64,000 nt of DNA from Solobacterium sp. (GTDB lineage: Bacteria > Bacillota_I > Bacilli_A > Erysipelotrichales > Erysipelotrichaceae), in NCBI GenBank assembly GCA_017512725.1, contig JAFWEW010000032.1, positions 1 through 64,000 of the forward strand, read 5' to 3'. The notes beneath the pieces are model-generated. The model did not search any database. It was not told where the DNA came from and saw only the letters and a program-made list of their open reading frames with translations. Numbering within the stretch: the first letter of the stretch is position 1; each line of letters opens with the position of its first letter. Positions 24,947 to 45,545 of the stretch are shown here, piece after piece. The translations under genes were made by a program, and so were the position numbers.

Positions 24947-27900
24947 ATGAGCGAAACACCTAACACCAATAAAACAACCGAATTAAAGCCCTATCTCTCG
25001 CCACTTGCGGTTTGGGCTCTGTCGGTAGGCTCGGCCATAGGCTGGGGTTCGCTGGTTGTTACCAGCAGTACCTATCTTTCCCAGGCAGGACCGATGGGTT
25101 CTATTATTGGTCTGCTGATTGGTTTTGCCATGATGGTAATGGTATCAAGTCATTATCATTTCTTGGCGAATCGCTACCCGGGTGTAGGCGGACTGTACAA
25201 CTATGTCAAGGAAATCTTCGGTTATGACTTTGCCTTTCTGATTGCGTGGTTCATGTTCCTGATCTATATCTCAATCTTCTGGGCGAATGCCACGAGTATT
25301 CCACTGTTTGCACGTTACTTCCTGCATGGAGTCTTCAAAGTTGGATATCTCTTTACGGTTTTCGGTTATGAAGTCTATCTTGGTGAAGCGCTCGTGACAC
25401 TGATTGGAATGTGGCTTGTCGGCTTCTTGTGCATGAAGAGCAAAAAGATGACCGCATACGCAATGGAAGTGATGGTACTGCTGTTTACCATCGGTATAAC
25501 GGTTTGCTTTGCAGTTGCGATGATCGGTCACAAGAGTTCCGGGATGTCGATGAGTCCGGCCTTTATTCCGGACACAAGTGTCTTACGGCAGGTGATTCGA
25601 ATTGCCTTTATCTCACCGTGGGCGTTTATCGGTTTTGAAAGTGTATCGCATTCTTCGGAAGAATATCATTTTAATCACAATAAATTGTTTCGTATTCTGG
25701 TTATTTCGGTAGCAGTCACGACCGCTTTGTATATTTTCATCGTTCTAATGAGTGTTTCCGCTTATCCGGAAGGATGCACCAGCTGGCTTGATTACATCAG
25801 CCGACTGAATGAGTTTGAAGGGATCCAGGGTCTTCCTGCGTTCTATGCCGCTTACTATTATCTTGGAGATACTGGCGTTTATATCCTGATGGCATCTCTG
25901 ATGTCACTGGTACTGACAAGTCTGATCGGTATGCTTCGTACTGTCAGCCGTCTTTGTTATGCCGTTGCACGGGATGGCATCCTGCCCAAACGCTATGCGG
26001 AGCTTAATGAAAAACAAATTCCCGCCAAAGCAATTCTTCTGGTACTTCTGGTCTCTTTGCCCATACCGTTCCTTGGCAGAACGGCGATTGGCTGGATCGT
26101 AGACACCACGACAATTGGAGCGACCATCATCTATGGTTTTGTATCCGTTGCGGTATTCAAGGTATCTGGAAAGGAGGGTGTGAAAAAGAATCACTTCATC
26201 AGTGGTATCTGTCTTTTCATACTGGTTGCTTTCCTGGTCTTCTTACTTTTCCCAAGTGCGTTCTCTGACTACACCATTGAGACCGAAACCTATGTTCTCA
26301 TGGCTGTCTGGTCAATTCTTGGTCTGATTTATTTCAACTTCGTTATTCGAAAAGATCATGAACGGAAATTTGGTAAATCGGTCTTCGTCTGGATCGTTCT
26401 GCTTGCCTTTGTCGTCCTGAATGGAATGACCTGGGCAGAACGTCTGAATGAAGAACGGGAAAATGTCGTTATGGCAGAGATCTCGGAATATATAGAAAAT
26501 GTGGCTAGTGGCGAGATTTCTGGTGAAGATAAACAAGAGTTTCTGAATGAGCGGCTTCTTCGGCTCCATGCTGCAGATAATACAAGTGCGCTTGTAATTG
26601 CGGTTTTGTTTGGTATGTCAATCGGTGTAATGCTCATTAATTACTCCACAAGCAATAAGTGGGAAAAGAAGGCTACGCTGGAACGAGATGAAGCACGTAC
26701 TGCCGCGCTTACGGATCCTATGACCGGTGTCAAGAGTAAGCATGCCTTCCTCTTAAATCAGAATCAGATCGACGCCACCATTCAGGAAAAAACAGCAGAG
26801 AAATTTGCGGTCGTTGTATGCGATGTAAATGGCCTGAAAGTTATCAATGATACGCTTGGCCATAAAGCGGGTGATGAGTACATTATTAAAGCAAGCAGGA
26901 TGATCTGCGACATTTTCCAGCACAGTCCGGTTTACCGGACAGGCGGAGATGAGTTTGTCGTTGTATTAACTGGCCGTGATTTTATTATCCGTAAGGAGTT
27001 AGTTCTGACACTGCATGATCGCTCTGTAGAGCATATTAGTAAAAAGGATGTTGTCATTTCCGGTGGTATGTCTGATTATGAACCAGAAACAGACAACTGC
27101 TTCCATGACGTGTTTGAACGTGCTGACTCCCTGATGTATGAAGAAAAGAAATTGCTGAAGGGCATGGGTGCGATCTCGCGTGAAGATGCAGAGACAGAAG
27201 GGAAACCGATGTTCCCGATGGATGAAGATGCGGAAATTCTGCATCTCAAACGTCACATCCTCATCGTAGAAGATGAACATATCAATCAGGTCATTCTTGG
27301 CAATATGCTCAATGAAGGCTATGATCTCCTGTACGCTTCGGACGGTATTGAAGCTCTGGAACAGGTCAAAACACATAAAGATGACATTGCCCTTGTAATG
27401 CTGGATCTTCAGATGCCTCAGATGAGCGGCATGGAAGTACTGAAAGTAATGAAAGAAGAAGATGAGCTCAAAGGTATACCGGTCATCGTCATGACGGCAG
27501 ACCAGACGGCAGAAGTCGACTGTCTCAAGATCGGTGCAATTGACTTCATTCCGAAACCTTATCCTTCTGCTGAAATCATTCAGGCCCGTGTCACCCGGTG
27601 TATTGAACTTACTGAAAAGCGCAGTATCATCGAATCCACAGAACGTGACAGTCTTACAAACCTTCTTAACCTGGATTACTTCCTGCGTTATGTTCGGATG
27701 TATGACCAGCACTATCATGATATGGCGATGGATGCGATTGTTCTGGACGTTAACAATTTCCATATGCTTAACGAACGTTATGGTAAGCAGTATGGTGACA
27801 GCGTACTTGCCCGTATCGGACGACAGGTTCGTCAGATCTCCCGTGAAGTCGGCGGTGTGGCATGCCGGCGTGGGGCAGATACCTTCATGATCTACTGCCC

Positions 27901-29314
27901 GCACAGGGATGATTATGAAAGTATTCTGGACAAGGCATCAGAAGGCCTGGTGGATGATGATGTATCTTCAAACCGTGTCCGTCTGCGTATGGGCGTCTAT
28001 TCCCAGGTAGACAAGTCACTGCCGATCGAACGCCGTTTCGATTATGCAAAGATTGCCGCAAACATGGTCAGAAGCGGATATCGGAAAGCCATTGGTATTT
28101 ACGATACCGAAATGCATGAGGCGGAACTTTACCGGGAACGCCTGCTGGAAGACTTCAAGCCTTCCCTGGAAAACAACAACTTTGTGGTTTACTTCCAGCC
28201 CAAGTATGACATTCGTCCTGACAAGCCGATCTTGTCCAGTGCGGAAGCGCTAGTGCGTTGGAATCATCCTGAGCTTGGCATGATCAGCCCGGGTGTGTTT
28301 ATCCCGTTGCTTGAGGACAATGGTCTGATTCTCGATCTCGACCAGTTCGTATGGCGTGAAGCTGCCGCAAGAATTCGGGATTGGAAAGACCGGTTCGGCT
28401 ACTCTGTTCCGGTATCCGTGAATGTATCCCGTATTGATATGCTGACACCAAACCTGAAGAGCATCTTTAAAGAGATTCTGGAGGAATACAGACTCAATCC
28501 GGAGGATCTGGTTCTGGAAATCACGGAGTCGGCTTATACCGGCGATTCGGATCAGGTTATTTCTACCGCCAAGGATCTGCGCGGTATGGGTATGGGCTTC
28601 CGTATCGAAATGGACGACTTTGGTACCGGCTACTCGTCATTGGGTATGCTGTCACATCTGCCAATCGATGCTCTGAAGCTGGATATGAGCTTTATCCGTA
28701 GTGCATTCGGTGAAAACCGGGATGTCCGCATGATCGAATTGATCATCGACATTGCAGACTACCTGCATGTACCGGTTGTTGCTGAGGGTGTTGAAACCGA
28801 AGAACAGTATCTCGTCCTGAAGGCAATGGGCTGTGATCTCGTACAAGGTTACTACTTCTCGAAGCCGGTACCGCCGGAAGAATTCGATCGGTTCCTGATC
28901 GAGCGTGCCGAAGCAAAAGATGTAGTTACACCAGCGACCAAGAAAACCTATATGAGTATTTCCAAGGCGCTGACGAGTGACTTTGAGAGCATCTTCTATG
29001 TAGATGTAGTCACCGACTTCTATCTTGAGTTCTACACCGGCAAGGAAGGAGAACTTGAAATCCGTCCAGGCGGATCGAACTTCTTTACCGAAGCCCGTGA
29101 GAAACTGGTGGAAGGTGTAATCGAAGAAGATGTTTCGAAGGTCAGAGAAGCAACCAGCAAATCGAACCTGATCAAGCTGGCTGGACAGGAAGAGGCAGTT
29201 ACCGTATCGTTCCGCAAACTGAAGAACGGAGAGGCGACGCCTTATTCCCTGCAAACCATCAAGACACGTGAAAGTGACAACAACCACATTGTCATTGGTG
29301 TAAGACAGGATTAA
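24947..29314 (+). CDS. APC-type permease fused to GGDEF-REC-GGDEF-EAL c-di-GMP signalling domains
   Basis: 1455 residues. Residues 15-495 form an amino acid-polyamine-organocation (APC) permease of about 12 membrane segments (AVWALSVGSAIGWGSLV; later VGGLYNYVKEIFGYDFAF). A further membrane segment at 546-566 leads into a cyclase domain (590-735) with intact GGDEF at 666-670 and no RxxD inhibitory site. Next come a response-regulator receiver (768-890, phospho-acceptor D820), a second, degenerate GGDEF (RRGADTF at 974-980) and an EAL phosphodiesterase (1065-1320, E1100-A-L, DDFGTGYSS, EGVETEEQ). A PAS-like module at 1335-1455 ends the protein. Synthesis and breakdown of c-di-GMP may respond to transport of an amino acid. 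Membrane-bound; AGGAGG-type site and terminator present. Confidence 0.9.
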   Translation: MSETPNTNKTTELKPYLSPLAVWALSVGSAIGWGSLVVTSSTYLSQAGPMGSIIGLLIGFAMMVMVSSHYHFLANRYPGVGGLYNYVKEIFGYDFAFLIAWFMFLIYISIFWANATSIPLFARYFLHGVFKVGYLFTVFGYEVYLGEALVTLIGMWLVGFLCMKSKKMTAYAMEVMVLLFTIGITVCFAVAMIGHKSSGMSMSPAFIPDTSVLRQVIRIAFISPWAFIGFESVSHSSEEYHFNHNKLFRILVISVAVTTALYIFIVLMSVSAYPEGCTSWLDYISRLNEFEGIQGLPAFYAAYYYLGDTGVYILMASLMSLVLTSLIGMLRTVSRLCYAVARDGILPKRYAELNEKQIPAKAILLVLLVSLPIPFLGRTAIGWIVDTTTIGATIIYGFVSVAVFKVSGKEGVKKNHFISGICLFILVAFLVFLLFPSAFSDYTIETETYVLMAVWSILGLIYFNFVIRKDHERKFGKSVFVWIVLLAFVVLNGMTWAERLNEERENVVMAEISEYIENVASGEISGEDKQEFLNERLLRLHAADNTSALVIAVLFGMSIGVMLINYSTSNKWEKKATLERDEARTAALTDPMTGVKSKHAFLLNQNQIDATIQEKTAEKFAVVVCDVNGLKVINDTLGHKAGDEYIIKASRMICDIFQHSPVYRTGGDEFVVVLTGRDFIIRKELVLTLHDRSVEHISKKDVVISGGMSDYEPETDNCFHDVFERADSLMYEEKKLLKGMGAISREDAETEGKPMFPMDEDAEILHLKRHILIVEDEHINQVILGNMLNEGYDLLYASDGIEALEQVKTHKDDIALVMLDLQMPQMSGMEVLKVMKEEDELKGIPVIVMTADQTAEVDCLKIGAIDFIPKPYPSAEIIQARVTRCIELTEKRSIIESTERDSLTNLLNLDYFLRYVRMYDQHYHDMAMDAIVLDVNNFHMLNERYGKQYGDSVLARIGRQVRQISREVGGVACRRGADTFMIYCPHRDDYESILDKASEGLVDDDVSSNRVRLRMGVYSQVDKSLPIERRFDYAKIAANMVRSGYRKAIGIYDTEMHEAELYRERLLEDFKPSLENNNFVVYFQPKYDIRPDKPILSSAEALVRWNHPELGMISPGVFIPLLEDNGLILDLDQFVWREAAARIRDWKDRFGYSVPVSVNVSRIDMLTPNLKSIFKEILEEYRLNPEDLVLEITESAYTGDSDQVISTAKDLRGMGMGFRIEMDDFGTGYSSLGMLSHLPIDALKLDMSFIRSAFGENRDVRMIELIIDIADYLHVPVVAEGVETEEQYLVLKAMGCDLVQGYYFSKPVPPEEFDRFLIERAEAKDVVTPATKKTYMSISKALTSDFESIFYVDVVTDFYLEFYTGKEGELEIRPGGSNFFTEAREKLVEGVIEEDVSKVREATSKSNLIKLAGQEEAVTVSFRKLKNGEATPYSLQTIKTRESDNNHIVIGVRQD

Positions 29315-32832: not shown

Positions 32833-35091
32833 ATGAAGGAACGAATCAAGTCAAAGCAAACTCCGAAATATCTGGTGTTGATGATTGCTTTTCTGCTGAT
32901 CGTAATGATCACACTTGGATATCTGTTAGTACGTCAGGCAAAAAAATCGTTGATCACGCTGATGCAGACACGTATGCTCGACATTTCCAATACTGCGGCA
33001 GCGATGATCGACGGAGATGTACTGAAAACCGTTTCGCCTGCAGATAAGGGGACGGAAGGATACGAGTCTATCATGCGGACTCTGACCTATTTCCAGGATA
33101 ATATCGATCTCAAGTATATTTACTGTATTCGCGATGAGGGAAACGGTAACTTCACATTTGGCCTGGATCCTACCGTAGATGATCCGGGTGAATTCGGATC
33201 CCCGATTGTTTATACAGAGGCTTTGGATAAAGCAAGCAAGGGAACTCCTTCCGCGGATAACACCTACTACGAAGATTCCTGGGGAAAATTCTACAGCGCA
33301 TACAGCCCGGTTTATGATTCAGATGGAAACGTCGCGGGAATTATTGCTGTAGACTTCAGTGCGGAATGGTATGATGAACAACTTGCAAATTTGACCAGAA
33401 CAACGTTAATTATCGCATTCCTGTCTCTGTTAATTGGTGCAGCGATCGTTGTTACCATTGTTTCCAGAACAGAGCAGAAGATCGGAACGATTCATAATCA
33501 GCTGAATGAGCTTTCCAGTACGCTGATGCATGAAATGGGAAATGATCTTGAAGATTCGAAAGCGGATCAAAACGAATCGGATCCGAATGAAGAACCTGTT
33601 TCAATTGAATCGCTGGGGGCTCATATCCAGTCCATGCAGACGGAACTCAAAACACAGATTGCCCAGGTACACGGTCATGCCTACCAGGATGGTCTTACTG
33701 GTGTTAAGAGTAAACAATCTTATCTGGAAATGGAAAAAGCTCTGAATGACAAAATGGCCAAAGGGACACTTCCGGATTTTGGTATTGTCGTCTGTGATGT
33801 GAATGATCTTAAGACAATAAATGATACACTCGGTCATCATGCGGGAGATGAGCATATCCGCAAATCGTGCAAGATGATCTGTGATATTTTCGGGCACAGC
33901 CCGGTATACCGTATCGGTGGGGATGAGTTTGTGGTAATTCTGACCGGCAGGGACTATGAAAATCGGAAAATGCTCATGCATGAACTTCACAGACGTTCTG
34001 CTGCAAATATCGAAACGGACGATGCGGTTGTTTCAGGCGGTCTGGGTGATTATGTTCCTAAGCAGGATCAGAATGTTCATGAAGTATTTGAACGCGCGGA
34101 TTCTGCGATGTATGAAGAAAAGAACCTGCTTAAGACCCTTGGCGCGGTAAGCAGAGGGGAAGAACCGGATCTTTCCGACAGTGAAGATATAACCGATGAT
34201 CTTCCGATGATCAATATACGGAAACATGTCCTGATTGCCGATGATGTCACATCCAACCGGGAGATTCTCGGAGACCTTCTCTCGGATGACTATGATATCT
34301 TCTATGCGGCTGACGGTCAGGAGGCTATGGAAATTCTTCGGGAACATAAAGATGAGATCGCACTCGTTCTGCTCGATCTCTACATGCCGAAGATGACCGG
34401 CCGTGAAGTCATGACCGCAATGCAGGTAGATAAGGATCTGGTATCCATTCCGGTAATTGTTCTGACGATCGATCAGAATGCAGAACTCGACAGTCTGAAG
34501 GTCGGCGCGATGGATTTTATTCCGAAACCCTATCCCGATGTTGATATCATAAAAGCCCGTATCGCCAAATGCATTGAGTTATCGGAAACACGTGATCTGA
34601 TCCGTCATACGGAGAAAGATACTCTGACCGGACTGTTCAATATCAATTATTTCATTCGTTATGTAAACCGCTTTGATCAGCAGTTCAAGGATACCATTTA
34701 CGATGCGGTTGTATGTGAAGTGAAACGATCGGATGATACCGATGAGGAATTTGGGAAGTCGTTTGGCGATCTTCTGGCCCGCCGCGTCGGTATGAGTATA
34801 AAGATGCTTGCCCGTAAGACCAGTGGAATCGGCTGCCGACAGAGAGAAAATACATTCCTGCTCTATTGCCAGCATCAGGATGACTATGGTCCGCTGTTCC
34901 AAAAGGTTATTGATGAAGTGAACGCGGAACCGGAAACTCGGGACAATGTCCGCCTGCGGTTTGGCGTATTTGTCAACGCACGACAGGAAGAGAATATTGA
35001 AGAACGCTTTGCCTGCGCGAAGGCTGCAGCTGAAAGTATTTCCAATGAAGGAAAGACAATCTGCGGCTACTATGAATACATTGGCGGCTGA
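32833..35091 (+). CDS. Cache-sensor diguanylate cyclase with receiver and degenerate GGDEF domain
   Basis: 752 residues. A membrane segment (15-33), an extracytoplasmic Cache-like sensor (40-185, ending FYSAYSPVYDSDGNVAGIIAVDFS) and a second membrane segment (190-211) lead to a cyclase domain (287-435) with GGDEF at 362-366. A receiver (464-585, D515) and a GGDEF relative without the motif (RQRENTF at 669-675) follow, and the protein ends there with no EAL domain. The last three domains correspond in order and in wording (MICDIFxHSPVYRxGGDEFVVxLTGRD) to the 1455-residue permease fusion, so the two are paralogues with exchanged sensors. Expected to make c-di-GMP. Confidence 0.9.
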   Translation: MKERIKSKQTPKYLVLMIAFLLIVMITLGYLLVRQAKKSLITLMQTRMLDISNTAAAMIDGDVLKTVSPADKGTEGYESIMRTLTYFQDNIDLKYIYCIRDEGNGNFTFGLDPTVDDPGEFGSPIVYTEALDKASKGTPSADNTYYEDSWGKFYSAYSPVYDSDGNVAGIIAVDFSAEWYDEQLANLTRTTLIIAFLSLLIGAAIVVTIVSRTEQKIGTIHNQLNELSSTLMHEMGNDLEDSKADQNESDPNEEPVSIESLGAHIQSMQTELKTQIAQVHGHAYQDGLTGVKSKQSYLEMEKALNDKMAKGTLPDFGIVVCDVNDLKTINDTLGHHAGDEHIRKSCKMICDIFGHSPVYRIGGDEFVVILTGRDYENRKMLMHELHRRSAANIETDDAVVSGGLGDYVPKQDQNVHEVFERADSAMYEEKNLLKTLGAVSRGEEPDLSDSEDITDDLPMINIRKHVLIADDVTSNREILGDLLSDDYDIFYAADGQEAMEILREHKDEIALVLLDLYMPKMTGREVMTAMQVDKDLVSIPVIVLTIDQNAELDSLKVGAMDFIPKPYPDVDIIKARIAKCIELSETRDLIRHTEKDTLTGLFNINYFIRYVNRFDQQFKDTIYDAVVCEVKRSDDTDEEFGKSFGDLLARRVGMSIKMLARKTSGIGCRQRENTFLLYCQHQDDYGPLFQKVIDEVNAEPETRDNVRLRFGVFVNARQEENIEERFACAKAAAESISNEGKTICGYYEYIGG

Positions 35092-35103
35092 ATGAATTGA
35101 ACA

Positions 35104-35159
35104 AAAGGAATTGAGGAATCTTTGCCCGGAAAATGGTGAAAGGTCTCAATTCCTTTTTT
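35104..35159 (+). terminator. Terminator of the Cache-GGDEF-REC gene
   Basis: AAAGGAATTGAG pairs with CTCAATTCCTTTT across about 29 bases and is followed by TTTTTT. Confidence 0.85.
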
Positions 35160-35175
35160 GTATTCTCTTGAAAAT

Positions 35176-35280
35176 GGGACCCTATATCATAGAGAATTAT
35201 GAACGGCTGTATTTCAGCAGTATAGGGCACCCTGGTACGGATTGCTCAGAAATGCTTCTTAACGAGAAGTCGTTTTTTTC
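35176..35280 (+). ncRNA. Candidate structured RNA, three-way junction with a terminator-like end
   Basis: GGGaCCCTATA at 35176-35186 pairs with TATAGGGcaCCC at 35221-35232. Inside are two small hairpins, CATA-N6-TATG (35188-35201) and GCTG-N5-CAGC (35206-35218). A weak stem CTTCT/AGAAG (35245-35259) and eight Ts follow. It fits no riboswitch family I can recall, including c-di-GMP-I. Confidence 0.35.
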
Positions 35281-35396
35281 ATCATTCACTGGAGTAGATA
35301 ACTGATAATATTTAGATATCTACAGAATTACTAATTAAAATGGTAAAGCTGAATTAGATATGAAAGAACTACAATAATCTTACGGAGGCAGAACAA

Positions 35397-38315
35397 ATGC
35401 GCGTTTCGGAAAGAGTAAAGCGGATGACCCTGTTGTCCCTGTTTTTTACGTTACTTGTACAGATGATTTTTCCGATTTCTGTACATGGAGAAGAAGAGGA
35501 TCATAAGGTTGTCCGAGTTGGATGGTACGATTCGACTTATAACCACCTGGATGGATACGGAAGACGCTCCGGTTATGCCTATGAGTATCAGCTAAAGCTG
35601 GCTGCTTATAACGGCTGGACCTATGAATACGTAGAAGGCAGCTGGCCGGATCTTTTGGACATGCTGAAAAACGGGGAGATCGACCTGATGAGCGATATCT
35701 CCTATCTGCCGGAACGGGAAGAATTTATGCTGTATTCCACGCTGCCGATGGGTACAGAGGAATACTACATTTTCAAGGCACCCGGCAACGAAGAAATCTC
35801 GCTTACCGATTATTCCACCCTGAACGGAAAGCAGGTCGGTGTGAGTTACGGCAGTTTGCAGGCAGAACTGTACAAAGAATGGGAAGCAGAAAACAACGTT
35901 CATTCTGAAATCACGGAACTCTCCTGTACCGAAGAAGAAGCACTGGAGAAGATGCAGAACGGGGAACTGGATGCCTATGTCACGGTGGATTCTTTTCTGG
36001 ATCCGACCTGTGCGGTCCCGGTTCATAAAATCGGAGCTTCTGATTACTATTTCGCAGTGAACATAAACCGGCCGGATCTTCTTGAAGACCTGAACTTTGC
36101 GATGAACCAGATCCAGGACGAAAACCGGTTCTATAATTCACAGATGTTTGAAAAGTATCTTCGCGGATCCGGCGCAAATGGTTTTCTTTCTGCGAAGGAG
36201 ACCGGTTGGCTTGCGGATCACGGAGCGATTCGTGTCGGATATCAGGATGACTATCTTGCATTCTGCAAGGAAGACAAGACGACCGGAGAACTGACCGGTG
36301 TATTAAAAGACTATCTGGATCTTGCGTCGGACTGTATTCCAAATGCCCATATTGATTTTGAGGCAGTTTCCTATCCGACAGCGGAAGAGGCAATGAATGC
36401 GCTGCAGAGAGGGGAAGTGGACTGTGTGTTCCCGGCCAATCTCAGCGGGTATGAGGCGGAACAGCAGAATGTGTTCATGACGCCGCCCTTAATGGATACC
36501 GAGATGTATGCGGTCGTACGCACGGCAGATCCCAACATCCTTGTGGAAGGCAGAAGTGTAACTGCTGCCGTCAATAAAGGGAACCCGAACTACGATGCAT
36601 TCCTTTCGAAACATTTTCCTGCCTGGGAACGGAAATACTTTGAAAATACAGATGAATGTCTGAAGGCGGTAGCGAATGGTTCTGCCGACTGCATAATCAT
36701 CAGCAACTACCGGTACAACAACATCGCCAGAAAATGTGAAAAATACCATCTGACCACATTCTCCATCGGTGTGGAAATGGATTACTGTTTTGCGGTTAAA
36801 AAGGGAATGACGGATCTGTATTCCATACTGGCAAAAATCACCAGCATCATTCCCGATTCTTCCGTGGATGCGTCACTGTCGTACTATATTACGGCGGATG
36901 CCAAACTGACGCTGAAAGACTTTCTGATTGATAATCTGGCAATCGTGCTGACGGTTGCAGGTGTCATATTTCTGGTGATCCTCTATCTGCTGATCCAGAA
37001 TATCAAGGCAGTCCGCACGGCGAACCGGCTGATTTCCGCTACGGAAACCGATGATCTAACCGGACTTTATAACCGCAAGTACTTCTTCCAGTATGCCGAA
37101 CGCATGTACCGGGAACATCCGGACCAGCCGATGGATGCGATTGTTCTCAATATCGAGCAGTTCCATTCCATCAATGCACTGCACGGAAGGGACCTTGGAG
37201 ATCAGGTTCTCAGAACGCTTGGAGATGAGATTCACCTGATCGCAAAGGAAAACCAGGGAATCGCAGGAAGATTTGAAGCGGACCGCTTTGATATCTACTG
37301 CCGTCACATGACGGACTATAAAGCGGCATTTGACCGGATCCAGGCAAGACTGGATAAGATTCTGCCGAATGCGATTATTCAGCTGCGAATGGGTGTCATG
37401 CCATGGCGGGAGAAGATGGAACCGGAACAGATGTTTGACCGGGCCCGTACCGCCTGCAAGATGGCCCGCGGTCACTATAAAGAACATCTGATTATTTACG
37501 ACGAAACGGTCAGTGAGCGGGAAAGCTATGAACAGCGGCTGATTCACGATCTTCGCCATGCCCTGGATGCTGAGGAATTCGAAGTGTTCTATCAGCCCAA
37601 ATATGATATTCAGGCAGAACCGCCGAAACTTGTCAGTGCTGAAGCCCTGATCCGCTGGAAACATCCGGAGCTGGGCATGATTCCGCCGGGGGACTTTATT
37701 CCGCTGTTTGAAAAGAACGGACAGATCGGTCTGCTGGATAAATATGTCTGGTCGCATGTTGCAGAACAGATCGCATTATGGAGAGATCGGTACGGCATAA
37801 CACTTCCGGTTTCCGTCAATCTCTCACGGATCGATGTCTTTGACCCGCAGCTGGAAGAGACCCTGGAAAGCATACTGGAACGGAACCATTTAGATCATGA
37901 TGCCTTCAAGCTCGAAGTGACAGAATCTGCCTATACGGAAAATGCCGATCAGGTCATCCAGGTTGTCGGGAACCTGCGCAATAAGGGATATGAAGTGGAA
38001 ATGGATGACTTCGGTACCGGGTATTCTTCTCTGAACATGCTGTCGGCGATGCCGATCGATGTTCTGAAGATGGACCGGACGTTTATCCGCAACATCGAAT
38101 TCGATGAAAAGGACAAGCAATTGGTCGCCCTTATTCTCGGTATCGCAAAAAATCTCAAACTGCTGGTCATTGCCGAAGGCGTTGAAACCGAAGCGCAGCT
38201 GGAAGAACTGAAAAAGCAGGGGTGTGAACTGGTTCAGGGATATTATTTCTCACGTCCGCTCCCGTCCGAGGAATTTGAACGGATCTATCTGTCCGGTTCC
38301 AAGTCCGGCAGCTGA
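35397..38315 (+). CDS. Tandem periplasmic-binding-domain sensor with degenerate GGDEF and active-type EAL
   Basis: 972 residues. A signal/anchor (1-31) precedes two SBP_bac_3-type solute-binding domains (38-257 and 276-500), the same fold as in BvgS-type sensors and amino-acid ABC transporters. A membrane segment (513-535), a GGDEF domain without the motif (FEADRF at 626-631) and an EAL domain (712-965) with E749-A-L, EVTESAY, DDFGTGYSS and EGVETEAQ follow. It should degrade c-di-GMP in response to an extracellular ligand, perhaps an amino acid. ACGGAGG precedes the ATG. The EAL sequence is close to that of the permease fusion. Confidence 0.9.
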   Translation: MRVSERVKRMTLLSLFFTLLVQMIFPISVHGEEEDHKVVRVGWYDSTYNHLDGYGRRSGYAYEYQLKLAAYNGWTYEYVEGSWPDLLDMLKNGEIDLMSDISYLPEREEFMLYSTLPMGTEEYYIFKAPGNEEISLTDYSTLNGKQVGVSYGSLQAELYKEWEAENNVHSEITELSCTEEEALEKMQNGELDAYVTVDSFLDPTCAVPVHKIGASDYYFAVNINRPDLLEDLNFAMNQIQDENRFYNSQMFEKYLRGSGANGFLSAKETGWLADHGAIRVGYQDDYLAFCKEDKTTGELTGVLKDYLDLASDCIPNAHIDFEAVSYPTAEEAMNALQRGEVDCVFPANLSGYEAEQQNVFMTPPLMDTEMYAVVRTADPNILVEGRSVTAAVNKGNPNYDAFLSKHFPAWERKYFENTDECLKAVANGSADCIIISNYRYNNIARKCEKYHLTTFSIGVEMDYCFAVKKGMTDLYSILAKITSIIPDSSVDASLSYYITADAKLTLKDFLIDNLAIVLTVAGVIFLVILYLLIQNIKAVRTANRLISATETDDLTGLYNRKYFFQYAERMYREHPDQPMDAIVLNIEQFHSINALHGRDLGDQVLRTLGDEIHLIAKENQGIAGRFEADRFDIYCRHMTDYKAAFDRIQARLDKILPNAIIQLRMGVMPWREKMEPEQMFDRARTACKMARGHYKEHLIIYDETVSERESYEQRLIHDLRHALDAEEFEVFYQPKYDIQAEPPKLVSAEALIRWKHPELGMIPPGDFIPLFEKNGQIGLLDKYVWSHVAEQIALWRDRYGITLPVSVNLSRIDVFDPQLEETLESILERNHLDHDAFKLEVTESAYTENADQVIQVVGNLRNKGYEVEMDDFGTGYSSLNMLSAMPIDVLKMDRTFIRNIEFDEKDKQLVALILGIAKNLKLLVIAEGVETEAQLEELKKQGCELVQGYYFSRPLPSEEFERIYLSGSKSGS

Positions 38316-38352
38316 AAGCAGCAGGGACTTCTAATCATTTACTAAGCTTAAT

Positions 38353-38375
38353 GCCGGCCTGAAATGCCGGCTTTT
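38353..38375 (+). terminator. Terminator of the SBP-EAL gene
   Basis: GCCGGC-N7-GCCGGC perfect stem followed by TTTT. Confidence 0.8.
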
Positions 38376-38380
38376 CAAAT

Positions 38381-38406
38381 GAAAAAAACGAACACCGTGT
38401 GTCCGT
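38381..38406 (-). terminator. Terminator of the frameshifted GGDEF gene
   Basis: Minus strand: ACGGACAC-ACG-GTGTTCGT stem followed by TTTTTTT. Confidence 0.8.
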
Positions 38407-38434
38407 TCCGTAAATGTATTCTGCTGTTTCCGGA

Positions 38435-39575
38435 TTACGCCGCGGGCACCTGTTCTTTGTGGTGCTCTGCTTTCATCTCGTACATGCGGGAATCCATTTC
38501 TTTCATGAAGGAATCGATTTCACCGTTCTGGAAGAAGCCAGTGCCATACGAGAACGAAAGCGGACAGAGGGGAGCAGACTGGTTGTAGGCATCGGTGTTC
38601 TGCTTCAGATTCGCAAGATACTCCTGCAGTCCTTCCTTGTCGTTCGTCAGCCGCAAAACGATAAATTCATCGCCGGCAAAGCGGAACACCAGTTCATTTC
38701 CGGTACGCGATGCCTTCAGAAGATCGGTTGCGGTTTTCAGGGCACGGTCGCCTTCGGTATGGCCGTAGGTATCGTTGATCTGCTTGAAGCGGTCAATATC
38801 GAGCATCACTCCGGCAAACGAATACCCCCGGGCCGACCAGGCAGAGAGGATATTGTTCAGATACTGCCGGTTGTAGGTACCGACCAGCGGGTCAATATAA
38901 GCTATCTCGTTCTGCTGCATCATAAACAGTCCGACCAGTCCGATGGCAGCAGAAAGCCAGGCAAGGGAGAGACCATAAAAGACAAACTGCAGCGTCGTTC
39001 CCGTGATGATCGGGAACAGGAACATCCGGATGCTGAAAAAGGATCGGGTTCCGTTGGCTTTTTTCATACCGTTTTGTCACAATCACCGCAGTTGTGCAGT
39101 AATAGATGATCAGTATGTAGAACACATAGCTTAACGGCATCCGGGAATACGTATTCTGTTCTGAAATCCGATAGATAAGCGGAACAAAGAGATTCACAAT
39201 GTTCAGGACAAACATGATTCCTGCACTGATTTTCTGCGGCAGATAAAGCTTCCTGAGCCGTTTGGGATCTTCATAGAGGCCAAGATCCACGTAAAACAGC
39301 AGGGCCAGCGGAAGCAGCAGATTGATTGTGAACAGATAGGTATTTGCGATGTAATTCAGAACAATGGAACCGGGAAACAGCTTTCCGTCGATCGCATAGG
39401 AAAACGCTTCAAAGAAACAGCCGATCATGACACCGAACACCATGAACGCAAAGATCTTATCTTCCGGACCGGCACGCTGGATCCGGATCCTGGATACGTA
39501 ACGAAGGATCAGCAGTATAAAAATCCCAACCCCGTTTGCCAGAAAGATCGATTGAAGATTCATGATATTTACCAT
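38435..39575 (-). pseudogene. Membrane diguanylate cyclase broken by a one-base frameshift
   Basis: The first frame starts at ATG 39575 (AGAAGGAGT 7 bases upstream, TATAAT at 39655-39660). It encodes five or six membrane segments up to VIVTKRYEK. The second frame (38435-39067) continues with SFFSIRMFLFP, two more membrane segments and a cyclase domain with LDIDRFKQINDTYGH and AGDEF. The break is at a run of six As near 39060-39065 (GAAAAAAGCC). With five As the product would read RYEKANGTRSFF without interruption, giving about 380 residues. Either a recent mutation or a sequencing error; the needed +1 shift does not fit a classical programmed slip site. Both parts look otherwise intact. Confidence 0.8.
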
Positions 39576-39824
39576 ACTCAGACTCCTTCTGAACCACCCG
39601 TATTCCTGAATGCAGTGCCGTTTCAATTCAAGACGGCAGAACAATAGCTGTTTCCTATTATACCCTTTGGAAACTTTCGCTGAACAGTCCATAAACACCC
39701 GGACATTCATGCAGATAACCGGGTCATGCAGGAAGGCTGATGCGGGCTACTTGGCGAAATGCTTTTCTTATTGTACAGTTTTTATGTAATATAGAATCAA
39801 CAATAACGCAGAAAGGAGAGAAAA

Positions 39825-40004
39825 ATGGCTGAGGAAAAACACGGATACTGGAAACATACAAAGATAAAATCAGATCAGTATGTTGTCGGTTATTATTATG
39901 CGCGGGAATGCAAGTGCAGCAACTGCGGCAGCATCAGCATGTATGAAAATCAGAAATGCTCTTTCTGCGGAGCAGTCATGGATCTGAAAGAGCCGAAGGA
40001 ATAA
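39825..40004 (+). CDS. 59-residue zinc-ribbon protein
   Basis: MAEEKHGYWK start with GAAAGGAGAG 5 bases upstream and a TAATATAGAAT promoter-like region before it. Two knuckles, CSNCG and CSFCG, form a rubredoxin-like or zinc-ribbon fold; a third Cys precedes the first knuckle. The ribosome binding site and the motif make it a convincing small gene. Function unknown. Similar mini zinc-ribbon proteins are common in Firmicutes. Confidence 0.75.
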   Translation: MAEEKHGYWKHTKIKSDQYVVGYYYARECKCSNCGSISMYENQKCSFCGAVMDLKEPKE

Positions 40005-40095
40005 ATCGAACTTACAGAAAGGGAACGGCTGTGCGCTGTTCTTTTTGTTTTGCCGGACTATGCATATAATTACAGTAAGGAAACCGATTTCTCAT

Positions 40096-40227
40096 ATGTG
40101 TACTTTGCCATTGATTGACTGGGACGGTAACGGAAGGATCGATCCCTCTGATGTTGCGGTCGGACTTGCGATTGCCGAAGAGGAAAAACGGAACCGGGAA
40201 GCGGATGATGACGGTGAGGAAGAGTAA
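40096..40227 (+). CDS. 43-residue EF-hand/dockerin-like mini-protein
   Basis: From ATG 40096 the peptide contains DWDGNGRIDPSDVAVGLAI, a canonical calcium loop (D1, D3, N5, I8, D12). Its Asp at position 12 and following helix resemble one half of a dockerin module. The tail is acidic (ADDDGEEE). TAAGGA lies 13 bases upstream, with a TATAAT before it, and an in-frame start at 40045 is upstream of that promoter. No signal peptide is visible, so if made it is cytoplasmic. It directly precedes the GGDEF-EAL gene. Confidence 0.5.
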   Translation: MCTLPLIDWDGNGRIDPSDVAVGLAIAEEEKRNREADDDGEEE

Positions 40228-40290
40228 ACTGCCGCATCAGCCGAAAACGGACCGGTTCAGCTTTTTGCGTATTAGGATTGGAAACAGATT

Positions 40291-43254
40291 ATGAAGAACT
40301 ATGTGATCACAGACGAACAGCGGGCGGCGATGGAAGCACTCCCACAGCCGATTGCCATCTATCAGTATGTGGACGGACAGATTGTTCCGCTCCTGCTTTC
40401 GGATGGCTTCTGTGATCTGTTTGATTATGCGAACCGGGAAGATGCGTATCGTGACCTCACCGAGAATCTCTACCGGGATCTTCATCCGGATGATGCTGCA
40501 CGAATAAAAGAGGCAGCCAGGCGCCTGATCAACGGCGAACCCTATGAAGTGATCTATCGCTCGGGAAGGGCTTCTCAGTCCGGGTACCGGATCATCCACG
40601 CCATCGGCAAGCGCATCAAGACCGAAGACAATACCATAATTGCGCATGTCTGGTACATGGACGAAGGTACCTATACCGAAAAGTACAGTTCGGAAGGAAT
40701 TGAGCTGAATGCGGCGATGCGGAATGCGCTGTATGGAGAGAGTGTTCTGAAAGCCAATAACTATGATTATCTGACCGGTCTTCCGAACATGAACTACTTC
40801 TTTGAACTGGCCTCTGCTGCGAGAGCCGACTTCCGGAAAAACGGCCGCGATGCGGTTCTGCTGTATATGGATCTGGTTGGTCTCAAATACTACAACCAGA
40901 AATACGGGTTCGCGGAAGGCGACCGGCTTCTGATCGTGTTTGCAGAGCTTCTTGAAGGGATTTTCCATAAGGACTGCTGCAGTCATTTCGGGCAGGGCCA
41001 TTTTGCGGCATTCATGGAAGATCAGGGTGTTGAAGACGTTCTGCGCCATCTGTTTGATGAATGGCAGAAACGAAACGGTCTGGATTCTCTGCCGGTCCAT
41101 GTCGGCATCTATCAGAGCAGCTATGAAAATGCACCGGTCAGTACCGCCTTTGACCGTGCAGTGCTTGCCCGGGATAAACTGAAGGGATCGTATATCTCTT
41201 CCTATGAATACTATGCGGAAGAGATGGGCGAAGGCATCGCCAAGAGCCACTATATTCTGGAACATTTCGACGAAGCCATCCAGCACGGATGGATTCAGGT
41301 CTGGTACCAGCCGATCATCCGGGCAGTCAGCGGATTTGTCTGTGATGAAGAAGCACTGTCCCGCTGGATCGATCCGGAGCGGGGAATTCTTTCTCCGGCG
41401 GATTTCATTCCGGTGCTGGAAGATGCCGGACTGATCTATAAGCTGGATCTCTATGTACTGGAACAGGTACTGATCAAGATTCAGGAACAGATTGATGGCG
41501 GTCTTGTCGTTGTTCCGCAGTCCGTGAACCTGTCCCGGTCCGACTTCCATTCCTGTGACATTGTGGAAGAAATCCGCAAACGGGTCGATGATTCTGGAAT
41601 CCGCCGGGAGATGATCACGATTGAACTTACCGAAAGTATTGTCGGTTCGGACTTTGACTTCATGTCGAAACAGATCAAACGCTTCCAGGATCTTGGCTTT
41701 CCGGTATGGATGGACGACTTTGGCAGCGGGTATTCTTCCCTCGATGTTCTTCAGAGCATCAAGTTTGATCTGATCAAATTCGATATGAGTTTCATGCGCA
41801 AGCTGGAAGAGGGAGATGATGGCAAGATCATTCTCACTGAGCTGATCAAGATGACCAAGGCACTTGGAGTCGACACCGTCTGTGAAGGCGTAGAAACCCT
41901 TGCGCAGGTACAGTTCCTGCAGGAAATCGGATGTTCCAAACTGCAGGGTTATTACTACTGCAAGCCCATCCCGAAAGAAGAAATCTGGAACCGGTACCAG
42001 AAAGGGATCCAGATCGGGTTTGAGAATCCGGAGGAATCCAGATACTTTGATGAAGTCGGACGGCTGAATCTGTATGACCTTGAGATGATCGCAGCGGATG
42101 AAAACGACAGTGCCTTCCAGAATTTCTTTGATACGCTCCCGATGGGCGTGATCGAAGTAAAGGATGACAAGACCCGGTTCGTCCGTTCCAACAAGTCCTA
42201 TCGGGATTTCATCAGCCGGTATTTCCATATGAATCTTTCCCATGAAGGATCCTCGTTTGAGAAATACTCCGACACGTTCATGAATAACATTGTCCGGACC
42301 TGCTGCGAGCAGGGGATCCGTTCGTTCTATGATGAAACGATGCCGGATGGCTCCGTCGTTCATTCCTTTGCCAGAAGGATCGCAATCAATCCGGTGACCG
42401 GTACGATTGCGGTCGCCGTTACCGTTCTTTCAATCTCCGAACAGGGAGAAGGAACAACCTATGCCAGCATCGCAAGAGCACTGGCGGCAGACTATTACAA
42501 TATCTACTACATCGATCTCGATACCGAAAAGTTCATCGAATACTCTTCCCCGATCGGCGGAGAAGAAATCGCCATGGAACGGCATGGGGAGGATTTCTTT
42601 GAATCGGTCAAAAAGGATGCCTTATCACGGATCTATGAGGAAGATCTGCCTCGTTTCCTGGCCCAGTTCACAAAAGAAAACATTATCCGGGAACTGGATG
42701 AGCAGGGCGTATTCACCATTACATACCGTCTCGTTCAAACCGATGGTCCGATTTATGCGAATATGAAGATCACCCGGATGCCGGGAGGCAATCACATTAT
42801 CCTCGGTGTCAGTATCATCGATCTGCAGATGAAACAGCAGGCGATGTACGAAGGAATCCGCAAGGAACGGGATGCGCTGGCCAGGGTCATCGCGCTTTCG
42901 GAAGACTATCTGATGCTGTATTCCGTGGAAATCAATACCGGATCGTATATTGAATACAGTTCTTCGGAGGTGGTGGAACAGTTCGGAATTGGCAAGGAAG
43001 GGGAAGACTTCTTCCTGGATTCTAGAATCAATGCGGAAAAGATGATCTGCGTCGAAGATCAGCCGGAATTCCTCCGCCAGTTCACAAAGAAAAACATTCT
43101 GGCGCAGGTACGGGAGAATGGCCTGTTCAAGATTCATTACCATCTGATGGTCAATGGCGAGCGGAAGCCGGTCAGCCTGCGGATCGCAATGGTAAAAAGC
43201 GGTGATGAAGAACGGCTTGTGGCAGGTGTCCGCGCCTGGAAAGAACGGAAATAA
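40291..43254 (+). CDS. PAS-GGDEF-EAL phosphodiesterase with three C-terminal PAS-like modules
   Basis: 987 residues, soluble. A PAS-like domain (1-120), a GGDEF domain lacking the motif (FGQGHF at 233-238) and an EAL domain (315-575; E354-A-L, ELTES, DDFGSGYSS, EGVETLAQ) are followed by a PAS domain (605-715) and two copies of a module (about 725-845 and 865-985). That module starts YNIYYIDLDTEKFIEYSS or YLMLYSVEINTGSYIEYSS and contains FTKENI/FTKKNI; a diverged copy ends the permease fusion protein. It should be a c-di-GMP phosphodiesterase with several sensory inputs. No membrane segment is seen. Confidence 0.88.
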   Translation: MKNYVITDEQRAAMEALPQPIAIYQYVDGQIVPLLLSDGFCDLFDYANREDAYRDLTENLYRDLHPDDAARIKEAARRLINGEPYEVIYRSGRASQSGYRIIHAIGKRIKTEDNTIIAHVWYMDEGTYTEKYSSEGIELNAAMRNALYGESVLKANNYDYLTGLPNMNYFFELASAARADFRKNGRDAVLLYMDLVGLKYYNQKYGFAEGDRLLIVFAELLEGIFHKDCCSHFGQGHFAAFMEDQGVEDVLRHLFDEWQKRNGLDSLPVHVGIYQSSYENAPVSTAFDRAVLARDKLKGSYISSYEYYAEEMGEGIAKSHYILEHFDEAIQHGWIQVWYQPIIRAVSGFVCDEEALSRWIDPERGILSPADFIPVLEDAGLIYKLDLYVLEQVLIKIQEQIDGGLVVVPQSVNLSRSDFHSCDIVEEIRKRVDDSGIRREMITIELTESIVGSDFDFMSKQIKRFQDLGFPVWMDDFGSGYSSLDVLQSIKFDLIKFDMSFMRKLEEGDDGKIILTELIKMTKALGVDTVCEGVETLAQVQFLQEIGCSKLQGYYYCKPIPKEEIWNRYQKGIQIGFENPEESRYFDEVGRLNLYDLEMIAADENDSAFQNFFDTLPMGVIEVKDDKTRFVRSNKSYRDFISRYFHMNLSHEGSSFEKYSDTFMNNIVRTCCEQGIRSFYDETMPDGSVVHSFARRIAINPVTGTIAVAVTVLSISEQGEGTTYASIARALAADYYNIYYIDLDTEKFIEYSSPIGGEEIAMERHGEDFFESVKKDALSRIYEEDLPRFLAQFTKENIIRELDEQGVFTITYRLVQTDGPIYANMKITRMPGGNHIILGVSIIDLQMKQQAMYEGIRKERDALARVIALSEDYLMLYSVEINTGSYIEYSSSEVVEQFGIGKEGEDFFLDSRINAEKMICVEDQPEFLRQFTKKNILAQVRENGLFKIHYHLMVNGERKPVSLRIAMVKSGDEERLVAGVRAWKERK

Positions 43255-43339
43255 GGTTCGCACTTAAGACATTCGGGAAACTTTGTACCGGATGTTTTAT
43301 CATCCGCTACACTTAAGGTGCTGAAAGGAAGAACAAAAC

Positions 43340-43816
43340 ATGGAACCAGTTGTACTGAATGAGGAACTGACTTTAAACCTGCCGGAAGGATTCCGGATCC
43401 TGAGTGAGGAAGAACGAAAGGCGATGCCATCCACAGATGAGCCGCCCGCCTGGTGTGCCCGGGACGATCAGCGGCACCTTGTGATTGTGGCTTACTGGAA
43501 AAAAATCGGCGGATTATCGGCGATGCTGATCAATGAGAAAGATGTTATCCGGCATGTGGAACAGACGGTCTCAAAACCGATGGCGCAGTATGGGTACCAT
43601 CTGGAAAACTGGGAAAGCATTCTGATCGGGGACCGCAAGGCCCAGGGGATCTGTTACAGCTATCAGGCGGAAGGGATCGGAATGATGGCAGACTCCTTTG
43701 TCGTCAAGAGCCGCAGAACACTTTATTATTTTCATGCCTACAGCCGCTCGGTTCTCCATGAAGAAAACCGGATCCTGTGGAGCGACCTGTTCCTGAGAGC
43801 TGTATGGAATGACTGA
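43340..43816 (+). CDS. Protein of unknown function
   Basis: 158 residues, no signal peptide or membrane segment. LNLPEGFRILSEEER near the start and a mixed alpha/beta pattern (HLVIVAYWKKIGG, DSFVVKSRRTLYYFHAYS) resemble a PsbP/DcrB-like fold, but I cannot confirm a family. GAAAGGAAG precedes the ATG. It lies between two signalling genes and could be co-expressed with the preceding GGDEF-EAL gene, 85 bases upstream. Confidence 0.6.
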   Translation: MEPVVLNEELTLNLPEGFRILSEEERKAMPSTDEPPAWCARDDQRHLVIVAYWKKIGGLSAMLINEKDVIRHVEQTVSKPMAQYGYHLENWESILIGDRKAQGICYSYQAEGIGMMADSFVVKSRRTLYYFHAYSRSVLHEENRILWSDLFLRAVWND

Positions 43817-43852
43817 TGAAGGAACGATTGTCATAGAATCAGACGTATTATT

Positions 43853-43878
43853 GAGGGAGGAGAAATCTTCCTTTTTTC
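43853..43878 (+). terminator. Probable terminator after the 158-residue protein gene
   Basis: GGGAGGAGAAATCTTCCTTTTTTC contains an imperfect GGAG-AAAT-CTTCC stem followed by six Ts. Confidence 0.55.
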
Positions 43879-43959
43879 GGATTACCGAAAAATGCCGTTC
43901 TTTTCGGAATTGTTTGTGGCTATGATAAAGAAGAACAAGTTATAAATAACGGAGGCTAT

Positions 43960-45465
43960 ATGAACAGAAAACAGACCCCGGCAGTTTTCGCTGCATTTTG
44001 TGCGCTGCTGTTTGGCGCATGCGTTTCGGCGCTGAAGTGTTCGGATACGAAAGACGGCATTACGGTTGAGCTGAACAATGCGGTCTTTACGAATAACGGA
44101 ATCGAAACGGTAACACCGGATATCACGATTACCAACTCCTCCCAGGAGGATATCACCGGCGTTACCTATGAAGTGACATTTTTCGGCGATCAGGAAACGG
44201 AACTGGAAACCATCCGGATGTTCTGGCGGTGCGATGAAGAACCGCTGAAAGCAGGCAGCTCCATTCGCGACAAGGATTCCCGATACAACAGTCACGACGC
44301 AAAACAGGCAAAATCGGTAAAACTGGTGATTACCGAAATCAAAACCGCAAAAGAGTTCCCGCCGGACCGGGTCCCGAAGAAGGGAGAGTATCTCTATCAG
44401 GCAATGGGAGATGAGAAACTTGCGGCTATTCAGGAACACAAACCGGAAAAGATCGTAGCGGGCATCGATCAGAGCGGATACGTACGCACGGCAACCTTTG
44501 AAGGGGACCTGCTGGATGAGGCAGTTGATGCGTTTGTGAAGATCAGGCTCGGGGATGATGATGCACCGATGGTGACGGATAATTACAATTATGTTGTGTT
44601 CTACTGGGATGACGGTACGACCAGCGGTATTAATCTGAATCTGCAGAACCTGGAAGTTATGGCAAACGGCAGATATCACAGCTACTATCTTGAAGATCTC
44701 GGCCCGTTCTGGGGACTGGTGAATGACCATCTGGTCGATCCGGAACCTTCGGAAGAAGATCTGCAGGTATCCTGTGAACTGAATCATGTCAAAGCTGTGC
44801 TGGCAGATGTTGTGTACCGCGAATCCGATGGAACGATTCTGCCGGAACCGTATGTGAAATTCGCAAATGAATCCAAGACAGAATATCTGGGCGTGATTTA
44901 TGAAATTGAATATTACGATGCCAACAACAGCCTGCTTGGCCGGCAGCTGGCCTTTACCGACGAAAGCGCTCCCTATTCCGCAGGCGAAACGTGGGAAGAG
45001 CGCCCAAAGGAAAAACGGCCGCAGATGAAGGAAATGCCGGCTTCCACATCGATCCGGATCCTGGATACGATCGGCGGTTCAACAACGCCTTCCCTGAAAC
45101 AGACAGACGCGGAATATCTGTATCAGAAGATTGACAATGAACAGATCCAGTCCCTTCCGAAAACCGTCCCGGTCCTGACAGATATTACGGTGGATTCCGA
45201 TTCCAACTCGTTCAACGCAGTCTTCTTTGACGTGAACGGAAAAGACATCGCAGAGGCGTTTACCGGAATCAAGATCCGGAGTGATGCAGAAGAAGCGGAA
45301 GAGACAAGTTACAAGTCCATCATGATGACGTTTGAAGACGGGGAAGAGATCCATCTGAATATTGTGAACGGCTGTCTGATTGCACTGCAGGATGGGGAAG
45401 TTGTCAAAATCGGCATCGGGGATGAAAACGGATTTTTCGAGCTGGCAGAAGAGACCGGCAGCTGA
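43960..45465 (+). CDS. Lipoprotein with internal tandem duplication
   Basis: 501 residues with a lipoprotein signal (LLFGAC, Cys21). The mature protein is two copies of a roughly 230-residue unit. Each has a beta-sandwich-like part with VTYEVTFFGD / VIYEIEYYDA, a junction GEYLYQAMGDEKLAAIQ / AEYLYQKIDNEQIQSL, and a second part with YNYVVFYWDDGTTSGINL / YKSIMMTFEDGEEIHLNI. The duplication is clear at protein level, but I cannot name the fold. It is surface-anchored and precedes the HD-GYP gene by 80 bases, so a sensory or adhesive role is possible. Confidence 0.75.
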   Translation: MNRKQTPAVFAAFCALLFGACVSALKCSDTKDGITVELNNAVFTNNGIETVTPDITITNSSQEDITGVTYEVTFFGDQETELETIRMFWRCDEEPLKAGSSIRDKDSRYNSHDAKQAKSVKLVITEIKTAKEFPPDRVPKKGEYLYQAMGDEKLAAIQEHKPEKIVAGIDQSGYVRTATFEGDLLDEAVDAFVKIRLGDDDAPMVTDNYNYVVFYWDDGTTSGINLNLQNLEVMANGRYHSYYLEDLGPFWGLVNDHLVDPEPSEEDLQVSCELNHVKAVLADVVYRESDGTILPEPYVKFANESKTEYLGVIYEIEYYDANNSLLGRQLAFTDESAPYSAGETWEERPKEKRPQMKEMPASTSIRILDTIGGSTTPSLKQTDAEYLYQKIDNEQIQSLPKTVPVLTDITVDSDSNSFNAVFFDVNGKDIAEAFTGIKIRSDAEEAEETSYKSIMMTFEDGEEIHLNIVNGCLIALQDGEVVKIGIGDENGFFELAEETGS

Positions 45466-45545
45466 TTCCAATCAGAGTTTAAGTTTCTTCTGGAAAACCG
45501 TCTTATTTTGAGTATGATGAACTGGTATTACGGAAAGACAGAACT

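Follow-up and report, generated by a model that had tools for sequence, protein, structure and literature searches.

Here I discuss a gene in the first 64,000 nucleotides of contig JAFWEW010000032.1 of a Solobacterium sp. assembly (GCA_017512725.1), a stretch referred to below as the window, whose product joins an APC amino-acid permease to a complete cyclic di-GMP (c-di-GMP) module of the order GGDEF-REC-GGDEF-EAL (Table 1). The architecture of this fusion, its intact active sites, the selection acting on it, the adaptor behind its permease, the exchange of its outputs among relatives and the occurrence of split operons are established, and I consider it reasonably probable that the protein is a bacterial transceptor whose c-di-GMP output is bifunctional. 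More tentatively, it may stand for an undescribed class of APC transceptors in bacteria, spread horizontally and found in at least two gut phyla, in which a permease-hairpin sensor is plugged into hybrid kinases, cyclases or a complete cyclase-receiver-phosphodiesterase and amino-acid transport itself is converted into c-di-GMP or phosphorelay signals. The ligands of most bacterial cyclases and kinases are unknown; in this case the sensing part can be identified as a permease and its pocket is intact, which makes both ligand and coupling directly testable.

One gene with its active sites retained

An earlier note, made from the letters of the window alone, had described a full-length 12-segment permease fused to an intact GGDEF, a phosphorylatable receiver, a degenerate GGDEF, an intact EAL and a PAS-like end, and this description survives almost entirely. 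Within the single frame, Pfam places AA_permease_2 at residues 17-453 (E 2.7e-28; 99.5 bits against a cut-off of 27), GGDEF at 587-735, Response_reg at 771-880 and EAL at 1069-1307 (E 1.5e-62), all four above their gathering scores. What needs amending is the number of transmembrane (TM) segments, since twelve is correct for the permease and the linker at residues 470-585 supplies two more, bringing the whole protein to 14. The same Pfam search gave no SSS family match to the permease domain, which belongs to AA_permease_2/AA_permease.

Alignment, model and Foldseek agree on a LeuT fold with 12 TM and unwound glycine motifs in TM1 and TM6: the permease part of a model of residues 1-760 (mean pLDDT, the model's confidence score, 77) superposes on AdiC, LAT1, SLC7A10 and GkApcT, and its best matches, AdiC and SLC7 structures, have target TM-scores of 0.72-0.80. 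When the pocket is set against that of GkApcT, whose residue roles are described in PMC5803215, G32, W33 and G34 of TM1 are kept in every orthologue covering them, the TM6 heptad at 225-231 does not vary in any orthologue, and Tyr262, the equivalent of Tyr268 in GkApcT, is invariant; the TM1 and TM6 motifs are also largely common to kinase-fused, GGDEF-fused and standalone relatives. A destroyed substrate site, for which the earlier note had advised checking, is rejected on the invariance of these motifs.

The signalling half is equally well kept. Across 43 orthologues, the window's included, the first GGDEF motif is intact and the RxxD inhibitory site absent in every case, the receiver always has Asp820, Thr and Lys with an acidic pair (ED or DD), and the EAL catalytic residues (EAL, N, E, DDFGTG, K, E, Q) are unbroken in all copies that reach them, while the second GGDEF, upstream of the EAL domain, is degenerate (GADTF). 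No Pfam family matched the C-terminal 120 residues; because the best PDB matches of their model (mean pLDDT 79) are PAS domains, the PAS-like label stands.

A scan of 84,980 species genomes returned 47 loci with the permease half at 69-85% identity, mostly on contigs of ruminant-gut metagenome-assembled genomes, and together with genomes of the same order these provide 42 distinct full or near-full copies of the permease-GGDEF-REC-GGDEF-EAL protein, the complete ones mostly of about 1420-1530 amino acids; the full-length fusion occurs in at least 40 genomes besides the window's, with a permease 70-85% identical to it, and almost all of these genomes were assembled from ruminant-gut metagenomes. 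Purifying selection acts on all domains, the ratio of nonsynonymous to synonymous substitution rates (dN/dS) being mostly 0.02-0.2 and, in near pairs, 0.07-0.14 for the permease and 0.02-0.10 for EAL. Full-length copies, conserved catalytic residues and low dN/dS together exclude an assembly fusion and indicate that every enzymatic part is under selection. The window does come from a draft genome and two relatives (L078 and L081; L, G and C numbers designate loci, genomes and contigs) are broken, but the idea that assembly or gene calling joined two genes, an error the earlier note had also advised checking for, has practically no likelihood left, as the identical permease/GGDEF junction recurs in over 40 independent assemblies of different origin and the fusion is therefore genuine. 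The two broken copies (L078:7935-12400 and L081:412-3606) are interrupted in the adaptor or permease and are possibly pseudogenes or sequence errors. A separate PF13520 survey of 149 genomes of the phylum, a sample dominated by TGA-recoding genomes, gave no frame longer than 620 amino acids among the matches listed.

Table 1. Features of the fusion gene and of its c-di-GMP neighbour, in window positions.
Feature	Position	Strand	Evidence
Whole gene, 1455 aa: APC permease / 2TM adaptor / GGDEF / REC / degenerate GGDEF / EAL / PAS-like	24947..29314	+	Single 1455-codon open frame; Pfam
12-TM APC permease, aa 13-468	24983..26350	+	Pfam AA_permease_2; phmmer to GkApcT 5oqt (E 5e-9); AlphaFold model matching AdiC/SLC7
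TM1 unwound substrate motif A-I-G-W-G, aa 30-34	25034..25048	+	Equivalents of GkApcT I40-G44
TM6 substrate motif W-A-F-I-G-F-E, aa 225-231	25619..25639	+	43/43 identical
Adaptor, aa 470-585: TM13, ~50-aa extracytoplasmic helical hairpin, TM14, coiled signalling helix	26354..26701	+	Hydropathy; predicted model
GGDEF domain 1, intact GGDEF at aa 666-670, without RxxD I-site	26702..27157	+	Pfam; alignment
Receiver domain, phospho-acceptor Asp820	27248..27592	+	Pfam; alignment
GGDEF domain 2, degenerate (GADTF), aa about 893-1053	27623..28105	+	Alignment
EAL phosphodiesterase domain, catalytic motifs intact	28145..28876	+	Pfam; alignment
PAS-like C-terminal domain	28952..29305	+	Predicted model; PDB matches
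Neighbour: membrane GGDEF-REC-GGDEF protein, cassette 47% identical to fusion aa 586-1053	32833..35091	+	Pfam; sequence comparison

A shared adaptor, exchangeable outputs and split operons

Standalone relatives of the permease terminate within about 30 residues after TM12, whereas nearly every intact fused protein continues, by hydropathy, for about 87-125 residues with two hydrophobic helices that no standalone possesses. The model shows continuous helices at 475-520 and 526-588, with moderate confidence (pLDDT about 55-80), in the order TM13 with an extracytoplasmic arm, turn, second arm, TM14 and a coil entering GGDEF, and no Pfam family covering the 470-585 linker was found. This two-TM hairpin and coil is a new adaptor common to the fused forms; its predicted topology is that of a small dimeric receptor placed behind the permease, and it likely serves as a conformational relay.

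In same-order searches the permease module also turned up with other outputs, either GGDEF alone (about 730-800 amino acids) or hybrid histidine kinases (930-1416 amino acids; Pfam). The genome of the window itself has a second copy of the module, of the kinase type (C12:137723), and many other carrier genomes contain a second homologue too, in an 860-1200-residue frame whose length fits the kinase type. A maximum-likelihood tree built from 87 permease modules puts every fused form in one clade (100/100), with the true standalones outside it; 13 changes of output label are required, and L037 and L044, a kinase pair, are nested with strong support in the GGDEF part. This pattern indicates that permease and adaptor have been kept together while the output modules, be they hybrid histidine kinase, GGDEF alone or GGDEF-REC-GGDEF-EAL, were repeatedly exchanged. 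At L087 (12477-16067) there is also a permease-hybrid kinase that continues in frame into an alpha/beta hydrolase domain, downstream of a permease-GGDEF-REC-GGDEF-EAL gene.

The same components are found as neighbours. At six loci (L038, L085, L136, L140, L145 and L146) a permease-GGDEF gene lies directly against a REC-GGDEF-EAL gene, a hybrid kinase gene preceding the pair in L038 and L140, and seven of the eight members of one permease-kinase subclade (L039, L040, L135, L138, where the contig stops within the permease gene, L144, L148 and L153) adjoin a REC-GGDEF-EAL gene. Seven such partners that I compared are 46-62% identical to residues 768-1310 of the window protein, with EAL motifs intact and the receiver Asp kept. 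In the partner tree, the fused versions and most permease-GGDEF partners form one 100/100 clade, separate from the permease-kinase partners, with L085 as the exception. Judged from these split operons, then, a permease-sensor and the response regulator that goes with it, which relatives encode as separate proteins, are united in the window protein.

From permease state to c-di-GMP

I propose that an amino acid or similar amine is bound, and probably also transported, by the APC permease. The conformation of the permease would then be relayed by TM13/TM14 and the coiled helix, and c-di-GMP synthesis by the first GGDEF would be switched accordingly. A separate histidine kinase would provide a second input by phosphorylating Asp820, which may gate the adjoining degenerate-GGDEF/EAL phosphodiesterase, so that net c-di-GMP could reflect both a phosphorelay and a nutrient signal, integrated in one polypeptide. 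With such a fusion, cells can probably turn the uptake of a nutrient, or occupancy, straight into a lifestyle signal. Transport, the ligand, the direction and mechanism of coupling and the identity of the kinase are what I infer, and the shared adaptor, the exchangeable outputs and the split operons lend comparative support to the coupling of permease and output. A possible transceptor that might report flux or occupancy and both make and destroy c-di-GMP had been suggested in the earlier note as something unusual; the note is right on the architecture and active sites and, on comparative grounds, a transceptor is the best available reading, yet the fusion is no one-off, belonging to a family of dozens, and transporter-output fusions are known in principle (PMC7096432).

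Some observations weigh against this proposal. CbrA continues to signal after deletion of its transporter domain (PMC7096432), so a fusion need not mean tight coupling. The proton-coupling Glu115 and the TM5 Lys191 of GkApcT are replaced by Ile106 and Phe180 in the window permease, although standalone relatives likewise have no equivalents of either, which makes this a subfamily trait and not decay. Furthermore, the intact pocket motifs would also be compatible with a sensor that does not transport.

It is this last possibility, a permease fold that binds ligand but has lost transport, as exemplified by yeast Ssy1, that fares best among the alternatives, and I consider it unlikely but worth serious attention. 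In its favour, the pocket motifs are kept while residue 231 is Glu in all fused forms and Asp in all standalones but one, and at residue 329 the fused proteins mostly differ from the standalones (F to M/N), differences that suggest a ligand altered relative to that of the standalones. A pure receptor is harder to reconcile with the strong purifying selection across the whole 12-TM fold and with the retention of the gate and structural residues Tyr262 and Arg335. As a side observation, standalone relatives at L045, L157 and L158 directly adjoin 'sugar-transfer associated ATP-grasp' genes, a possible hint at an amino-acid ligand for surface polymers.

Improbable, to my mind, is the reverse logic, in which the cytoplasmic domains control transport through c-di-GMP or phosphorylation: fused second-messenger domains could indeed be regulators, and KimA with bound c-di-AMP is among the structural matches, but conservation extends beyond mere binding residues to the catalytic ones, the same permease and adaptor also occur in fusions with kinases, which normally serve as outputs, and the modelled adaptor topology looks receptor-like. 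I give similarly little credence to co-localisation only, meaning co-expression or membrane anchoring of c-di-GMP enzymes without allosteric coupling; physical interaction of transporter and kinase is inessential for CbrA signalling (PMC7096432), but a dedicated adaptor with its coil is conserved here, and so are the pocket motifs across exchanged outputs.

Hosts and horizontal transfer

Two carriers (L066 in G015 and L077 in G032) belong to the genus of the window and are labelled Erysipelotrichaceae and Solobacterium, most others being labelled Lachnospiraceae, Oscillospiraceae, Coriobacteriaceae and so on. A restriction to Erysipelotrichaceae is rejected, since the initial searches had spanned the window's GTDB phylum alone and rpoB groups the other bins with Clostridia-labelled and Coriobacteria-labelled genomes. 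The rpoB tree places the host bins at deep distances and in two phyla (the Coriobacteria-labelled bins sit on a branch of length 1.38), and identity to the window's permease hardly varies (66-81%) regardless of host distance; with hosts in two phyla, horizontal transfer is a likelier explanation than binning errors. Contamination of bins is unlikely because same-lineage bins share flanking genes (15 for L050/L053, 5 for L058/L059 and 5 for L072/L088), the Erysipelotrichaceae loci have next to none in common with other loci, and the fusion gene follows rpoB in GC content at third codon positions (r 0.92, a partly circular value, bins being made by composition). The rpoB gene of the window's genome (L165, G000:C21) also carries a 1151-codon open antisense frame, whose translation matches rpoB antisense in other genomes and which is presumably a composition effect only.

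Relation to known systems

Known transporter-output fusions include those of SLC5-STAC with kinases or cyclases, and histidine is transported by CbrA (PMC7096432, PMC13022988). In the view of the authors of PMC11109136, transceptors with membrane folds were eukaryotic until the S-component/5TMR case that they report themselves, prokaryotic ones are described as rare (PMC13022988), and I found no APC-family fusion to GGDEF or kinase in the open-access full-text literature. In LysP-CadC, a trigger transporter, a permease also tells a membrane signal protein of amino-acid availability (PMC7096432), but through two separate proteins and with a transcription factor as output.

CbrA and CrbS (SLC5-STAC-(PAS)-histidine kinase) and the SLC5-STAC-diguanylate cyclases are the closest known kind, sharing with the window protein the covalent linkage of a LeuT-fold transporter to a kinase or cyclase output. 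The window transporter, however, is APC/AA_permease_2 and not SLC5, it has 12 TM and a two-TM hairpin, apparently in place of a cytoplasmic STAC domain (a contrast drawn from hydropathy, the model and the lack of a Pfam match), its output is GGDEF-REC-GGDEF-EAL and its hosts are gut Bacillota/Actinomycetota. What is new is thus another transporter family, another adaptor and richer, exchangeable outputs. Amt-type ammonium transporters fused to histidine kinase or cyclase also use a transporter fold as sensor module, but that fold is an unrelated, channel-like trimeric one with ammonium as ligand. GkApcT, AdiC and the SLC7 permeases share the fold and the TM1/TM6 substrate motifs, and differ in having neither signalling domains nor a TM13-14 adaptor and in the residues at the proton-coupling positions.

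The family, with its dozens of members, its exchangeable outputs and its naturally occurring split and fused pairs, offers a ready-made experiment on how a signal is derived from a transport cycle, and it suggests how rumen bacteria link amino-acid supply to c-di-GMP behaviour.

The c-di-GMP surroundings

The neighbouring GGDEF-REC-GGDEF gene lies 3.5 kb downstream of the fusion and encodes the same cytoplasmic cassette, but no permease homology was found in its N-terminal half. It opens a dense c-di-GMP cluster (window 32833-47744, within 20 kb of the fusion) that also holds a tandem SBP_bac_3-GGDEF-EAL, a PAS-GGDEF-EAL and an HD-domain protein, the last of HD-GYP type. The 2.7-Mb genome has 69 stretches matching GGDEF, REC, EAL or permease. 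Only one c-di-GMP-I riboswitch was found in it (G000:C26:47320-47393; L162, L163), which precedes by about 80 bp the gene of a secreted protein that exceeds 1500 amino acids and has an InlB-type repeat, and no PilZ or flagellin match was found in the genome, for which reasons surface adhesion is a plausible target of the c-di-GMP output. The PAS-GGDEF-EAL protein of the cluster ends in two copies of the PAS-like domain.

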